DNA of 64,000 nt from Paractinoplanes abujensis (GTDB lineage: Bacteria > Actinomycetota > Actinomycetes > Mycobacteriales > Micromonosporaceae), in assembly GCF_014204895.1 (NCBI RefSeq), contig NZ_JACHMF010000001.1, positions 9,176,001-9,240,000 on the forward strand, written 5' to 3'. Shown here piece after piece: positions 36,787 to 43,429 of the stretch; the first letter of the stretch is position 1, and each line of letters starts with the position of its first letter. The notes beneath the pieces were generated by a model. It was not told where the DNA came from. It made no database searches and saw nothing but the letters and a program-made list of their open reading frames with translations. The translations under genes and the position numbers were made by a program.

Positions 36787-36825
36787 AGCGCCGGGCCCGC
36801 TCACCGCGGGCCCGGCGCTGTCCCC
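36786..36825 (+). terminator. Strong hairpin ending pheST, overlapping a convergent gene
   Basis: A perfect 15-pair stem (36786-36800 with 36806-36820, CAGCGCCGGGCCCGC) with a five-base loop and tail TCCCCGTTCC. Its 3' half codes for the last residues of the convergent small membrane protein. Confidence 0.75.
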
Positions 36826-37103
36826 GTTCCGCCGCAGGACGGGCACGTCGTGGCCGGGGAGTGCCGGTCCTCAAAGCCGTCGCCGGTGAAGTTCAGCGTG
36901 CGTTCCGGCTCCCGGCCCAGCCATCCCGTGCCGTGGCACGGCAGGCAATGGATACGCGGAGACGCCGCCATCTGACGCCGGCGACCAGCCCGATGACCGA
37001 GGAAAGCCTGCGCGGCCCATCGCGTCTCGCTGAACTGCCATTTGAGAACGATGGCGGCCCCGACGATCAGCAGCAGGCCGAATGTCACCAGTAGCCACGT
37101 CAT
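36801..37103 (-). CDS. Small membrane protein with two CxxCxGxG zinc motifs
   Basis: 100 residues, function unknown. One N-terminal membrane helix (MTWLLVTFGLLLIVGAAIVL) is followed by a basic stretch and two DnaJ-type zinc half-motifs, CLPCHGTGW and CPSCGGTGT. They lie 31 residues apart and could together bind one zinc. The ATG at 37103 is only eight bases after a GATAAT -10-like hexamer, so the transcript may be nearly leaderless. The last codons lie in the pheST terminator hairpin. DnaJ-like CxxCxGxG pairs act in protein or thiol handling elsewhere; that role here is only a guess. Confidence 0.7.
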   Translation of the reverse strand: MTWLLVTFGLLLIVGAAIVLKWQFSETRWAAQAFLGHRAGRRRQMAASPRIHCLPCHGTGWLGREPERTLNFTGDGFEDRHSPATTCPSCGGTGTAPGPR

Positions 37104-37247: not shown

Positions 37248-39119
37248 ATGACTGTCGCGCCGCACGACATCCCGTTTGTTCTTCTCGCCACCACCGGGGA
37301 GCGGCTCGGTTGGATCTACGCCGACCGTGACCACGCCCCGCAGCCGTTCGGAGAACCGGGGCCGGAGCCCACGCCGGTGTCGCCCGGACTGCAGGAATTC
37401 CTCCGCCGCGCGGTGCGCAGCAAAGCCCGGTGGCGGCGAAGCTCGATCCGGATCGGAATTGCATTGGGATTCGCCTGTTTCGGTTACGGCATTTGGCGAA
37501 TTCACCTGGACGGTGGTTTCAATCCGCTATTCGGCACCCTTGCCAAGATCTCTTTCTGCGGCGGACTCGGCGGCGCGATTCTGACCACCATCGGACCGTG
37601 GCTGATCCGGCGAGCCATAACCGTCACCGAGGCCGGCCATGCGGCGCGCCACCGGGCGGCCGTCGCCCAGTGGGAGGCGCGCCGCGATGACCACGAGGAA
37701 CAGCAACGGATCGCCGCCGGCGGCCGGCACGAATGGGTCGCGGCGGCACCCTCACCCGGCCACCGGCGTGTCGACATCATCGGCGGCACCATGTTCGGTT
37801 GGGAGGCCGTAGTCACCGTCTACGGTGCATCGCTGCTCGCCACCCGCGGGGCCATGACCCTGGTCGACTTCACCGGTGACGGGGTCTGCGCCGAGTTGAT
37901 GCGACTCGCCACCGCGACCGAACGATCCGTGCGACGGCTGCACCTGCCGGCCGATCTGGCCGAGTTCGACCTCCTGGCCGGTCTGAGCCCTGGCGAACTG
38001 GTCGACTGCCTGGTCGAAGCGATGCACGGCGACGGCCGGGGTGGGCGGGCCGACCGCTCCGAGGACTGGCTGTTGCTGACCGAGATCTGCGAGGTGCTCG
38101 GCGAACGGCCCAGCCTGGCCCGGCTGCTGGCCGCGCTGCGAACACTCACGGACCGCAGGAGTCAGGATGTGCTGTCATCCGACGAGATCGAGCGGTTGCT
38201 CGACCAGCATCCGGACGAGAACCGCCGCCAGCTCTACCCGCAACTGCGACGGATCGAGGCGTTCCTGCATCCGCTGGCGGCGATGGGCAGCGCCGCCCAG
38301 GCCGTGGAGCCTGCCTCGCTGACCTGCCTGATCACCGGTTCCGACGGCGGCGACGCGCAGAATGACCTGTTGCGGGATCTGATCCTGCATTGGCTGACCC
38401 GGCTCGTGCGGCGCCGGTTGCGGCCGATGGGCTCCCTCGTCGTGCTGGGCGCCGACGAGGTGGATCACCGGGCGATCGAGAAACTCAGCACGCTGTGCGA
38501 GCGGAACGGCGTGCGGCTGGTGCTGTTCTTCGCCCACCTGCGGGCCGAGGCGCTGCACACCATCGGTGGGGGTGAGGTCGCCCTGATGCGGCTCGGCAAC
38601 CATCACGAGGCGAGCCAGGCCGCTGACTACATCGGCAAGGGGCACAAGTTCGTTCTCAGCCAGCTCACCCGCACGCTCGGCGGCAGCGACACGCACACGC
38701 TCTCGGACACCAGCGGGCAATCCAGTACGGACGGCGGGTCGGGCACCATGTCGTTCGGAAACCGGCGGACGCGCGGTCGGGCGTACGGGAAAACCTGGAA
38801 CCTGACCCGTAACTGGTCCCAGACGGTGGCGACAGCCCGCGGCCAGAACTGGAGTGACGCCTCGTCGGTGCAGCGAACCTACGAGTACACGGTGGAGCCG
38901 CGGGCGCTGCAGGACCTTCCCGAGTACGCGATGGTGCACGTCCGGTCCGAAGGCCGCGAGACGACGATCCAGGCCGTCGAGGTCGACCCGGCCATCGTCA
39001 TGCTGCCGCACGTCTCGATGTACCCGCGGCCAGATGCTGCGGTGCGGACGAAACAGCAGGTCACCGAGGGTGCACATTCGGCTGAGCCCTCCCGGGGTCC
39101 TTGGGGTGGCCGGTCGTGA
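37248..39119 (+). CDS. Membrane-anchored degenerate HerA/VirD4-type ATPase
   Basis: 623 residues, no named family. A cytoplasmic N-terminus is followed by two membrane helices (about 67-84, IRIGIALGFACFGYGIWRI, and 99-120), a charged helix, then an ATPase-like domain. The place of the P-loop reads IIGGTMFGWEAVVTVYGASL (residues 177-196), where GxGKS would be expected but no lysine is present. The following LVDFTGDGVCAELMRLA fits the strand after a P-loop in VirD4/HerA proteins. A Walker-B-like LVVLGADEV is near 397. Near 515-540 is a Trp/Ser/Gln-rich stretch. I use the ATG at 37248; a TTG lies at 37200. GTGA overlap with the ATPase gene. Confidence 0.7.
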   Translation: MTVAPHDIPFVLLATTGERLGWIYADRDHAPQPFGEPGPEPTPVSPGLQEFLRRAVRSKARWRRSSIRIGIALGFACFGYGIWRIHLDGGFNPLFGTLAKISFCGGLGGAILTTIGPWLIRRAITVTEAGHAARHRAAVAQWEARRDDHEEQQRIAAGGRHEWVAAAPSPGHRRVDIIGGTMFGWEAVVTVYGASLLATRGAMTLVDFTGDGVCAELMRLATATERSVRRLHLPADLAEFDLLAGLSPGELVDCLVEAMHGDGRGGRADRSEDWLLLTEICEVLGERPSLARLLAALRTLTDRRSQDVLSSDEIERLLDQHPDENRRQLYPQLRRIEAFLHPLAAMGSAAQAVEPASLTCLITGSDGGDAQNDLLRDLILHWLTRLVRRRLRPMGSLVVLGADEVDHRAIEKLSTLCERNGVRLVLFFAHLRAEALHTIGGGEVALMRLGNHHEASQAADYIGKGHKFVLSQLTRTLGGSDTHTLSDTSGQSSTDGGSGTMSFGNRRTRGRAYGKTWNLTRNWSQTVATARGQNWSDASSVQRTYEYTVEPRALQDLPEYAMVHVRSEGRETTIQAVEVDPAIVMLPHVSMYPRPDAAVRTKQQVTEGAHSAEPSRGPWGGRS

Positions 39120-41941
39120 GGATCGCCGGGGACCTGATCGAAGGGTTACCGGTCAGCCGGATCCTCGAGCTGCCACGCCGGTCGACGCCGACCCGCGACG
39201 AGCAGGTCGCTGATGCCGGCCGCAGCCGGCGCCTCGCCGGCATCGTGTCGGCCTACCACAGCGGCGCCGGGATGCTTCTGGGCTGGAGCCGCCGGGCCGC
39301 CGGCGCGCCGGTCGAGGTGTTCGCGGCCGGCGGCATCGCGGGCGCCCCCGGGAACGGCCTCACACCGCTCTCCCTGCCGCCGGGCGCGCTGGGCCGGCCG
39401 TACGCGCCCGGTGAACTCATGAACAATCTGCGCCGGGTACCTCATTGGACCCGCCTGGCCGGACTTACCGACGGCCTGCTGGTCGACGACCCGGCTCAGC
39501 GTGACGACGACCTGCGTCCGACTCTCGACGAGTGCCTGCTGCATGTCTGGCACGGCGGGTTCGCCTGGTTCGTGCTGGCGGAGCCGGTGCCACCGGGCGA
39601 GATCGTAAGCATGGCCAAGGCAGTCGCGCAGGAAGAGCGGCAGGCGCAAACCAAAGCCCAGTCGCCCGAGCAGGCGATCGCGGCGACCCGCCTCCAGCGC
39701 CGGCACCGCGAGCTGCAGCAGGGACGGTCCACCGGCATGTGGCGGGTGCACGTGCTCGTCGGCGGGGACTCGTCGTCGGCCGCGTCTGCCGTGAGCGGCC
39801 TGCTGTGTGCCTCGGCCGACCTGGGCCGGCAGCCGTACGCGTTGGCCCCGACCGGCGTTGTCGGCGAGCTGGACAAGGTGCTGGCCGCGGAGGACGTGCC
39901 CGGCTCGCCTGTGCTGGCCGGCTCGCCGCTGCTCGCTTCGCTGGCCGTGGCACCGCTCGAGGAGGTGCCGGGTCTGCGTTTCGCGATGCGCTCCGAGTTC
40001 GACGTGACACCCGAGACCGAGAGCGGTCCGGACTCGGTCCCGGTAGGCGTCGTGCTCGACCGGGGCGGGCAGCCGGCGGGCGCGCTCGAGGTGCCGCGCC
40101 GCAGCCTCAACCGGCACACCTTCGTCTGCGGGGCGACGGGCGCGGGCAAGTCCCAGACCGTCCGCAACCTGCTTGAGAACGCGGCCGACCAGGGCCTGCC
40201 GTGGCTGGTGGTGGAACCGGCGAAGGCCGAGTACCGCCAAATGGCCGACCGTGTCGGGGGCGAACGGGTAATCACGGTGCGTCCTGGTGACCCGCTCGCG
40301 CCGCCGGCCGGGTTCAACCCGTTGCGGCCGGCCGAAGGGTTCCCGCTGCAGACCCATCTCGACCTCACCCAGTCGCTGTTCCTGGCCGCGTTCGACGCCG
40401 AGGAGCCGTTTCCCCAGGTGCTGAGCGCGGCGCTGACCCGTTGCTACGAGGAGTTGGGCTGGGACCTCGCGCTGAGCGAGCCGCGCGTCGCCGGTCACCA
40501 GCCCCGCTATCCGACGCTGGACGACTTGCAACGCTGTGCCGAACTCGTGGTCGACCGGATCGGCTACGGGCAGGAGATCACCGACAACGTCCGCGGCTTC
40601 ATCCGGGTGCGGCTGTCCAGTCTGCGTACGGGCACCACCGGCCGGTTCTTCGAAGGCGGGCACCCGCTCGACCTGGCCGAGCTGATGCGGCGCAACGTCG
40701 TCTTCGAGATCGAGGACGTGGGTGACGACCGGGACAAGGCCTTCCTGATGGGCGGGCTGCTCATTCAGCTCACCGAGCACCTGCGTGTCGAGACCCGGCG
40801 CGACCCGGCCGTGGCTCGGGCCGGGCTCCGGCATCTCAGCGTATTCGAGGAGGCGCATCGGCTCTTACGTCGTACCGAACCGGGCGGGCCGGCCGCGCAC
40901 GCAGTGGAACTGTTCGCCGCGCTGCTGGCGGAGATCCGGGCGTACGGAGAAGGCCTTGTCATCGCCGAACAGATCCCCGGAAAGCTGATGCCGGACGTCA
41001 TCAAGAACACCGCTGTCAAGATCATGCACCGGCTGCCCGCCGCGGACGACCGGCAGGCGGTCGGCGCTACCGCCAACCTCACCGCTCGTCAGTCGGAGTA
41101 CCTGGTCACGCTGCCGCCCGGCACGGCCGCGGTGTTCGCCGACGGCATGGACCAGCCCGTCCTCGTCCGCATGCCCGACGGCACCCCGCGCGAGCAGGGA
41201 GGTCACACGCCGACGGCCGCGGTCGACCCGATCATCGGACGACGCAGCCCGACGTGCGGTCTCGAATGTTCCGGCCGCGCCTGCACACTGCGCGAAATTC
41301 GCACGGCGCAGCGGTTACTCGAGGAACAACCGTGGATCACCTTATGGGCCGAGATCGGGGTGGTCGCCCACCTGACCGGCAAACCGCGACCGGAACTGTG
41401 GGCGGAGAAGACTGCCGTTCTGGCCGCGATGCCCGCCCGCCTGCGGGAATGTGCACTGTCACAGGCCGTGGACGCGGGGGTGGCCTCGCGGTCGGCCGGA
41501 ATGGGCCGGGCGACCGACCCGTTCGCCCTGTCCGCGCATGTACTGACCGGGTCCTGCACGCCCGACGAGCCCGCCTATGTGGCCCCGGCTTACCGCCACG
41601 GCTCGATCCTCAGCGCGTTGTCCGCGCAGGACGGCGACGGGCCGGCCGACTCGCGCGCCGCCGTCTGGTCGGAGGCGATCGGACGGGAGATCGTGGGCGC
41701 CACGATCGCCGAACAGGCCGACTGGGTGCGGTTCTGGATGGGAATCGATCAGCCCGCCCACGCGCTCCGGGCGGTCGTGGCGTTCGGGCGGTCCGAGCCG
41801 TCGGCCATCGAGAACGCGGTCGGTGCCGCCCCGGGCTCGTACGAGTGGGCCAACCGTCTGGCTATCGCGTTGACCGACACCTTCCGCGATGGCGAGTGGA
41901 TTCCCGATCTGCTCAACGCCGCCGTCCGGCCGCCCGACTGA
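39116..41941 (+). CDS. HerA/VirB4-like ATPase with a C-terminal cysteine-rich domain
   Basis: 941 residues. Residues 1-330 are an N-terminal region of unknown fold. The ATPase core starts at LNRHTFVCGATGAGKSQTV with an intact Walker A (339-346), then WLVVEPAKAEYRQMA, as in HerA/DUF87 and VirB4 proteins. Walker B is LSVFEEAHRLL near 575. The end of the core, NTAVKIMHRLPAADDRQAVG, is also HerA-like. About 250 C-terminal residues begin with CGLECSGRACT and match nothing I know. Such ATPases pump DNA or protein. The GTG start overlaps the previous stop, and the stop lies in the next gene's GAGGAG. Confidence 0.75.
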   Translation: MRIAGDLIEGLPVSRILELPRRSTPTRDEQVADAGRSRRLAGIVSAYHSGAGMLLGWSRRAAGAPVEVFAAGGIAGAPGNGLTPLSLPPGALGRPYAPGELMNNLRRVPHWTRLAGLTDGLLVDDPAQRDDDLRPTLDECLLHVWHGGFAWFVLAEPVPPGEIVSMAKAVAQEERQAQTKAQSPEQAIAATRLQRRHRELQQGRSTGMWRVHVLVGGDSSSAASAVSGLLCASADLGRQPYALAPTGVVGELDKVLAAEDVPGSPVLAGSPLLASLAVAPLEEVPGLRFAMRSEFDVTPETESGPDSVPVGVVLDRGGQPAGALEVPRRSLNRHTFVCGATGAGKSQTVRNLLENAADQGLPWLVVEPAKAEYRQMADRVGGERVITVRPGDPLAPPAGFNPLRPAEGFPLQTHLDLTQSLFLAAFDAEEPFPQVLSAALTRCYEELGWDLALSEPRVAGHQPRYPTLDDLQRCAELVVDRIGYGQEITDNVRGFIRVRLSSLRTGTTGRFFEGGHPLDLAELMRRNVVFEIEDVGDDRDKAFLMGGLLIQLTEHLRVETRRDPAVARAGLRHLSVFEEAHRLLRRTEPGGPAAHAVELFAALLAEIRAYGEGLVIAEQIPGKLMPDVIKNTAVKIMHRLPAADDRQAVGATANLTARQSEYLVTLPPGTAAVFADGMDQPVLVRMPDGTPREQGGHTPTAAVDPIIGRRSPTCGLECSGRACTLREIRTAQRLLEEQPWITLWAEIGVVAHLTGKPRPELWAEKTAVLAAMPARLRECALSQAVDAGVASRSAGMGRATDPFALSAHVLTGSCTPDEPAYVAPAYRHGSILSALSAQDGDGPADSRAAVWSEAIGREIVGATIAEQADWVRFWMGIDQPAHALRAVVAFGRSEPSAIENAVGAAPGSYEWANRLAIALTDTFRDGEWIPDLLNAAVRPPD

Positions 41942-41953
41942 GGAGCTTGCGCC

Positions 41954-43429
41954 ATGGCCGACAGCCCGACCACCCGGACCGACACCCCGCCGCCGCCTCC
42001 GCCGAAGCCTCCGGAGCAGGGGCCCGCGCCGGACGTCCAGCAGAAGATGGACACCCTGCGGGCGCAGCGGGAGGGCAACACGACGCCCCACGACCAGGGC
42101 GGGGTCAAGCCATCCGACCGGACACCCTCCCGTGGCCTCGAGCCGACCCCAGACTTCCAGCAGAAGCTGGACGCGTTCCGCGCCCACAAGGAGGCCAAGC
42201 AGGACGCCGGCCAGTACGTCGACCACCGCGCGGAGAAGGCGCAGAACACCGCGGCCCGCCACGCCGACCGGCCCACGGCCGGTCATCAGCGCGCCGCCGA
42301 GGGTCACGTCGCCCCCAGGACCGCGGAAGCATCGAAGGCCACGCCGGCCCGGGAGGCGGTGGCGGGAGAACGGCCGGGCGCGCCCAACATCGAGCGGTTC
42401 CAGCCGCCGCCACGGGGCCCCGGAGGCGAAGCCGGAGACCGGCGCCTTCATCAGGCCCAGCACCTGAAGCCTGAAGCCGATCTGCGGGGCCAGGCTCCGC
42501 AAATCCGGGCGGCGGAGAAGAACCCAGGCGAAAGGCCGCAAGGCGCGCACTACCGGGATCCCGGCCAGGATCAGCCTCGGGCTGACCGGAGCGAGGTGCA
42601 GCGGCAGGGCCTTCGTGACGCGGTTGCCGACGCCAAGAGCCGCAGGCTGGAGAACGCGGTCGGATTCGACCAAGCGACGGGCAGACCGGGCGAGCAAACT
42701 GGTGGGCGGCCTGAGCCGATCGTTGTGATCGGCGGCGACCAGCTCTTCAAGTCCGACTACCTCGACGCGGTGCGGCGGAGGGCGGAGAATCACGAGAAAG
42801 CTGAATACCGGATGGATCCGGCCGACGTCGTGGACGCCGACAGTCTGACCGTGGAGCAGATCGATGCGATGAAGGCCCAGGGCGCCCGCATCGTTGATCT
42901 CGGAGACGGCGACCCCGACGTGGTCGACCCGTGGGTGAAGAGCCGCACGGACGAGCAGCGGGACCGAGCGTCCGCGCCGCTGACGCCGGACTCGGGGGAC
43001 GGTGGCTCGGGACGGTATGAGCACTACCAGCCGCTCTTCGAGAAATACCCTGAGCCAGGCAGTCGCATCATGACCGGTGACATGCAAGAAGCCCGGGTAA
43101 TACCGGCCGCGGCGGAAATGGGCCCGGATGTGCACACCTTTGACGCTTTCCCCGACGAGGACCACAAGCCGAACCAGTTGGCGCAGAACATCGGGTGGAC
43201 CGGCAAAATCGCCCTGGACAACGCGGGTCACCCAGGTCCGGACGGCGTCTGGCGGCCGGACACGTACACCATCGGCTATTCGGAAGAGGCGCGGAACGGT
43301 AACGGGCCGGGCGACTTCTCGACCATGGAGGACGAGGTGCACCGGGATCTCGGCGCCTGGCGTCAGGGCGTCGACCGGGGTGACAACGCAGTCTTCCCCG
43401 ACCCGTACCTGCCGCCGGACGGCAGGTGA
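41954..43429 (+). CDS. Proline-rich protein with unknown C-terminal domain, candidate substrate of the ATPase
   Basis: 491 residues. The first 250 are disordered in composition (PPPPPPKPPEQ, many Glu, Arg, Gln, Ala). They carry a 16-residue module twice, 40 residues apart: PDVQQKMDTLRAQRE (26-40) and PDFQQKLDAFRAHKE (66-80). A compact C-terminal part starts at about 255 (PIVVIGGDQLFKSDYL) and ends with WTGKIALDNAGHPGPDG and DNAVFPDPYLP. No signal peptide and no known toxin motif are visible. GAGGAG at 41940-41945, eight bases ahead of the ATG, contains the ATPase stop. Long flexible head, repeated short module and variable tail recall secreted effectors, which is an inference. Confidence 0.65.
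   Translation: MADSPTTRTDTPPPPPPKPPEQGPAPDVQQKMDTLRAQREGNTTPHDQGGVKPSDRTPSRGLEPTPDFQQKLDAFRAHKEAKQDAGQYVDHRAEKAQNTAARHADRPTAGHQRAAEGHVAPRTAEASKATPAREAVAGERPGAPNIERFQPPPRGPGGEAGDRRLHQAQHLKPEADLRGQAPQIRAAEKNPGERPQGAHYRDPGQDQPRADRSEVQRQGLRDAVADAKSRRLENAVGFDQATGRPGEQTGGRPEPIVVIGGDQLFKSDYLDAVRRRAENHEKAEYRMDPADVVDADSLTVEQIDAMKAQGARIVDLGDGDPDVVDPWVKSRTDEQRDRASAPLTPDSGDGGSGRYEHYQPLFEKYPEPGSRIMTGDMQEARVIPAAAEMGPDVHTFDAFPDEDHKPNQLAQNIGWTGKIALDNAGHPGPDGVWRPDTYTIGYSEEARNGNGPGDFSTMEDEVHRDLGAWRQGVDRGDNAVFPDPYLPPDGR

Follow-up and report, generated by a model that had tools for sequence, protein, structure and literature searches.

In the known HerA defense systems, effectors are fixed partners of the ATPase. 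Chains that join a dead and a live ATPase have been reported for type VII ATPases in the accessible part of a survey of polymorphic toxin systems (Zhang et al. 2012, PMC3482391), and the available text of a 2025 study describes, as part of its cluster A, a Streptomyces albireticuli alarmone synthetase without a signal peptide beside TrwB-, TrwK-, and TrwI-like genes (PMC12691689). Here, we describe a locus of the soil actinomycete Paractinoplanes abujensis that encodes a membrane protein with a dead ATPase site (gene 1, P1), a separate HerA-like ATPase (gene 2, P2), and an effector candidate (gene 3, P3). It lies in a 64,000-nucleotide stretch (C1:9176001-9240000, hereafter the window) of a 9.33-Mb chromosome, and the closest named relatives of P1 come from Actinoplanes and Paractinoplanes. 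We infer export, and the cassette is probably a minimal export machine, similar to coupling proteins, for polymorphic toxins.

Pfam, NCBIfam, and PADLOC assign P1 to no family at cut-off, and four divergent relatives likewise gave none. An attempt to name P1 by sequence was abandoned, as its profile reached TrwB at an E value of only 0.55, beneath unrelated rows (best E 0.013). Its identity was settled by the predicted fold, which matched where sequence profiles failed: the model comes closest to VirB4 and to TrwB, a coupling protein of conjugation, placing it in the RecA-like superfamily, and P1 is thus predicted to have the type IV coupling ATPase fold (TrwB/VirB4/HerA). The initial annotation had reported a P-loop reading GGTMFGWE and two membrane helices, and both are borne out. 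The dead P-loop is conserved, because the functional Walker A lysine is missing from all 96 aligned rows, an alignment that, like the 68 rows for P2, includes duplicate genome records (loci L034-L047 repeat genomes under L048-L067). Tryptophan takes its place in 92 rows and arginine in four, one of them poorly aligned. The glycines persist (G179 in 93 and G180 in 96 of the rows), and GxxxxGK[ST] occurs elsewhere in three rows, a lysine at the P-loop position in none. The AlphaFold model has two long helices at the N-terminus; a simple hydropathy scan of the 96 rows found two segments in 51, one in 39, and three in six, and the hydropathy of these segments in the window copy is modest. A Ser/Thr/Gly-rich segment of P1 is weakly similar to NF033849 (E 0.15).

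P2 is HerA-like, with DUF87 and HerA_C matches above cut-off and intact Walker A and B motifs, the GATGAGKS and FEEAH of the earlier description. P2 and its relatives carry the precomputed domain label PF27615, and 2219 of 7994 scored candidates are related to P2 at E 1e-3. Searches of phages, made with P2 as the query, gave two partial matches at 28-29% identity. One P2-like ATPase (L124:5569-8994), found in a genome with low GC content at third codon positions (GC3) and with no P1 nearby, contains a long Ser-rich insert and resembles the NCBIfam description of NF033849 ("serine-rich protein"). We considered NF033849 as a fused P1-P2 and rejected it: the P1 profile had no match among 10 P2-only proteins, and no fused form was found.

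The two genes occur together in most loci. After removal of 14 duplicates, 87 loci were classed (gene calls in relatives are our own choices of open reading frame, some with uncertain starts), and 60 hold both P1 and P2, 21 P1 only, and six P2 only. Of 45 loci retrieved through P2, 39 have P1 in the stretch that was fetched, and P2 is present in 21 of the other 42 (the window and 41 retrieved through P1). Among 20 further loci, P1 or a piece of it accompanies P2 in 10 of 13 fetched via P2, and P2 accompanies P1 in four of seven fetched via P1. L123 has no P1 nearby, and L176 and L177 have P1 fragments only. Distances among P1 sequences track those among P2 sequences, with a matrix correlation of r 0.953 (n 69; 0/2000 permutations) to which shared ancestry contributes. 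The pair thus co-occurs and co-varies, co-occurrence being a check that the initial annotation had proposed. P1 is present in 44/300 genomes of the family. P2 is patchily distributed, in 44/394 genomes of the class (E 1e-40), 6/396 of the phylum (E 1e-30), and 12/295 of the genus of G492 (1e-80). Some copies are on plasmids. In seven loci (L127, L129-L131, L148, L149, and L159), the order is P2, P1, and then a conserved gene that we take, by its appearance, to be an AbiEi-type regulator.

Separation of the two genes had been named as grounds for doubting the partnership, and it holds in part, for the 21 P1 loci without P2 nearby. Three of the solo-P1 genomes carry a P1-P2 pair elsewhere, and 16 of the other 18 have no P2 at E 1e-30; of the remaining two, G110 has a separate pair, L085, and in G212 the P2-like gene is a weaker one. 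In a midpoint-rooted P1 tree (71 paired and 24 solo rows), paired forms are spread over the whole tree and the solo forms make up a few groups nested within them, so the pair looks ancestral and solo P1 derived. The window's own genome has such a solo paralogue (L003:7316-9154), at a syntenic Actinoplanes locus without P2, and its P-loop, GGTTYGWE, is also dead. At L071:10258-12011, an apparently broken or incomplete P2 adjoins an intact P1, which suggests that this lineage is in the course of losing its motor.

The gene that follows P2 varies. In 29 of the 60 paired loci, it is by our own reading gene 3-like, with a disordered and often Pro-rich head. In 13 others (L133, L135-L138, L140, L150, L151, L153, L155, L156, L158, and L164), a murT-gatD-like pair, so named by sequence appearance, lies directly downstream and gene 3 is absent; the rest are other or unresolved. 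Three loci (L132:6447-8249, L134, and L154) encode after P2 a protein of ~600 amino acids ending in SGxQIAVGG or similar; the one scanned, L132, has no Pfam family and is possibly not a genuine gene 3. A Pfam scan of 29 gene 3-like proteins, a different set from the 29 of the paired loci, identified toxin-type tails in nine, six above cut-off and three below (Table 1), and no toxin family in the other 20, the window's included. The L161 protein has a weak lipase-like NCBIfam match. Three genomes of one genus have closely similar heads with unrelated tails. Across relatives, then, a constant N-terminal part carries variable C-terminal domains, known toxin families among them, and the constant tail that would have spoken against a passenger was not found. 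Comparison of downstream genes showed 3/55 pairs to be related, and in each of these both loci have the same tail type, with three tail types involved; because tail and downstream gene types match in these cases, we dropped the reading of gene 3 as a chance neighbor. From this wider comparison, which is the decisive one, gene 3 is a putative member of a polymorphic effector family.

In the window itself, Pfam, NCBIfam, and PADLOC place gene 3 in no family at cut-off, with none such as WXG/LXG in Pfam, and no signal peptide or membrane segment was seen by eye. Its head does contain the doubled 16-residue module described initially: the copies are identical at 9/16 positions, which was reached by 0/300 shuffles of the first 120 residues. 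The module occurs in six distinct loci (the window, L048, L049, L051, L053, and L064), and an apparent chance match lies in L072. The tail has three homologues among 7992 scored candidates and no profile match; its model has a predicted local distance difference test score (pLDDT) of 46, and the best Foldseek hit (E 0.09) is not meaningful.

The tight coupling claimed for the three genes is present: a GTGA overlap joins genes 1 and 2 at 39116-39119, and the P2 stop, TGA(GGAG) at 41939-41945, runs into the Shine-Dalgarno sequence of gene 3. The account of a three-gene cassette stands for these genes and had overlooked a fourth of the same island, Z, which has a DnaJ_CXXCXGXG match below cut-off. 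Relatives of Z were found in 11/18 genomes searched, in 10 of them ~20-410 bp from P1, and Z is near P1 in all seven genomes of that set that hold P1 and P2. It is linked to P1 not only in paired loci but also in three with solo P1 (L052, L055, and L066), and G212 has Z by itself after pheT (L196). Z, P1, P2, and P3 have a GC3 of 0.81-0.87, compared with 0.92-0.97 for pheS and pheT together with the five genes that come next. The contrast is not absolute, because a ribosomal-protein gene farther upstream (30630) has 0.885. Among 12 genomes compared around pheT, G244 and G200 have an empty site, with the flanking gene, presumably SDR- or SAM-hydrolase-like from its sequence, within 60-90 bp of pheT; in another nine, it is further off or was not found within 1.5 kb. 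Since Z is tied to P1, the four genes share a lower GC3, and two relatives have empty sites, Z, P1, P2, and P3 together behave as a single accessory unit. In four Streptomyces-type loci (L122:13278-14747 and L172-L174), P1 has a different neighbor in place of Z, a membrane protein whose N-terminus is Pro-rich and which contains an HELGHH motif. The L122 protein, the only one tested, is a peptidase M48 by Pfam, and a processing enzyme of the system is a possible role for this protein.

Table 1. Features of the cassette in the window, and toxin-type tails of gene 3-like proteins in related loci.
Feature	Location	Strand	Description or evidence
Z, fourth gene	36801-37103	-	100-aa membrane zinc-ribbon-like protein, divergent from P1
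P1, gene 1	37248-39119	+	623-aa membrane protein; predicted TrwB/VirB4/HerA-type ATPase fold, catalytically dead
P1 predicted membrane helices, ~residues 65-83 and 94-112	37440..37583	+	Hydropathy; AlphaFold helices 46-86 and 93-159
P1 P-loop position GGTMFGWE, residues 179-186	37782..37805	+	Trp at Lys position; 96-row alignment
P1 Ser/Thr/Gly-rich segment, residues 482-530	38691..38837	+	Modelled as long beta-hairpin, pLDDT ~40-50
P2, gene 2	39116-41941	+	941 aa, GTG start; intact HerA-like ATPase
P2 Walker A GATGAGKS, residues 339-346	40130..40153	+	GxTGxGK[ST] kept in 68/68 rows
P2 Walker B VFEEAHRL (FEEAH, residues 577-581)	40841..40864	+	EE[AS]H kept in 68/68 rows
P3, gene 3	41954-43429	+	491 aa; effector candidate of polymorphic family
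Gene 3 head module copy 1, residues 25-40	42026..42073	+	APDVQQKMDTLRAQRE; repeat comparison
Gene 3 head module copy 2, residues 65-80	42146..42193	+	TPDFQQKLDAFRAHKE; repeat comparison
Gene 3 C-terminal tail, residues 253-491	42710..43426	+	Mixed alpha/beta in poor model, no recognised fold
ADP-ribosyltransferase tail	L122, L163		Above Pfam cut-off
EndoU tail	L160		Above Pfam cut-off; L160 contains undetermined bases
Calpain-like tail	L121, L173		Above Pfam cut-off
YwqJ deaminase tail	L144		Above Pfam cut-off
RelA_SpoT tail	L162, L176		Below Pfam cut-off
Ribonuclease tail	L146		Below Pfam cut-off

The initial annotation proposed a membrane pump with its own substrate, possibly an export or conflict system. 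That class appears right because P1 and P2 co-vary, tails vary on kept heads, and several tails are toxin domains; the anchor-motor pair and variable passenger fit, and the pairs without gene 3 and P1 without P2 do not. In the mechanism we propose, P1 would be the membrane anchor and receptor, P2 the motor, and gene 3 a swappable toxic substrate of the machine. A role for the dead P1 domain as substrate receptor is plausible because of the dead-plus-live chains reported for type VII ATPases in the part of PMC3482391 cited above. Several observations weigh against an exporter of toxins. The window tail has no known fold, its head matches relatives weakly, and no immunity gene adjoins it. Thirteen pairs, including that of the named Nonomuraea record L164, lack gene 3 and adjoin murT-gatD-like genes, where the pair may have a second role. 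Furthermore, P1 exists alone in 21 loci, 13 of which are one syntenic Actinoplanes paralogue.

The system might instead act inside the cell that makes it, as an anti-phage or abortive-infection module in which P1-P2 senses invading DNA or a phage at the membrane and frees or activates the gene 3 toxin, with small downstream genes as antitoxins. The best PADLOC matches of P2 are the mad8 and HerA defense models, the P1 model also matches DndH-C and TdpAB structures, and an ABC-three-component system with a DUF6615 gene (L162:15007-18835) lies downstream of a RelA-tailed locus on a linear Streptomyces plasmid; a toxin with an antidote is compatible with an internal system as well. We nevertheless find this unlikely: P1 is anchored in the membrane, the known HerA defense effectors form no swapped series, and delivered polymorphic toxins are typified, in the portion of PMC3482391 available, by variable tails on a constant head and by downstream genes that match the tail. 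More doubtful still is a general envelope or hyphal function for a P1-P2 membrane complex, with gene 3 a fast-evolving neighboring partner rather than cargo. The murT-gatD-linked loci and the synteny of solo P1 would suit such a role, yet P2 is patchy in both the genus of G492 and the class, two sister genomes lack the island, and several gene 3 tails contain toxin domains. A degenerate conjugation or DNA-translocation module, suggested by the VirB4- and TrwB-like fold of P1, the HerA-like P2, and the plasmid-borne copies, is very improbable, as toxins with immunity-like genes would not be expected and the annotation shows neither a relaxase nor a mating-pair gene within ~8 kb of three annotated plasmid loci, where many genes are hypothetical.

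Should the export of polymorphic toxins by P1-P2 prove true, a fixed dead/live ATPase pair would provide a compact export route, and what a pseudo-ATPase adds to a HerA/T4CP-type translocase would become testable. Reading the gene after P2 would also help to find toxins and immunity proteins that have gone unrecognised. Actinomycetes rank among the major producers of antibiotics, yet to our knowledge few delivered protein weapons have been found in them.

We found no description of the P1-P2 pair in the open-licence literature. Like the type IV coupling proteins (TrwB/VirD4 and Cag-beta) and VirB4, P1 has an N-terminal membrane hairpin and the same predicted fold, but its ATPase site is dead in every row and its live HerA-like partner is a separate protein. 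Type IV channel genes (VirB6, VirB8, VirB10, or Gram-positive equivalents) are not named in the three annotated loci, and no cluster of them was noticed among neighbors, where no dedicated profile search was made. In the type VII (ESX) ATPases EccC/EssC, the comparison is with one protein, whereas here there are two, and gene 3 lacks a WXG/LXG-type Pfam family. We tentatively suggest that the locus may represent an unnamed actinobacterial protein-secretion system, with a dead coupling-protein-like membrane ring, a separate HerA-type motor, polymorphic toxins with Pro-rich PEFQ-repeat heads, and no usual type IV/VII channel set. Its constant heads, swapped C-terminal toxin domains, and, in some loci, tail-matched downstream genes resemble the polymorphic toxin systems of Zhang et al., although the delivery genes P1-P2 are not among the routes given in the accessible part of that survey (T2, T5, T6, T7, PVC, TcdB/TcaC, PrsW, and MuF). 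The RelA-like tails near P1-P2 in L162 and L176 recall the exported alarmone synthetases of Streptomyces cluster A, and the S. albireticuli genes may be the first glimpse of a locus related to this one; the available text of PMC12691689 reads them as a type IV system and makes no mention there of a P1-P2 pair, a dead P-loop, or swapped tails. Finally, P2 is a HerA-type ATPase, as in HerA-SIR2, HerA-DUF4297, and MADS, and scores with such models, but its partner here is a membrane-bound, coupling-protein-like pseudo-ATPase, and the effector slot beside them is polymorphic.
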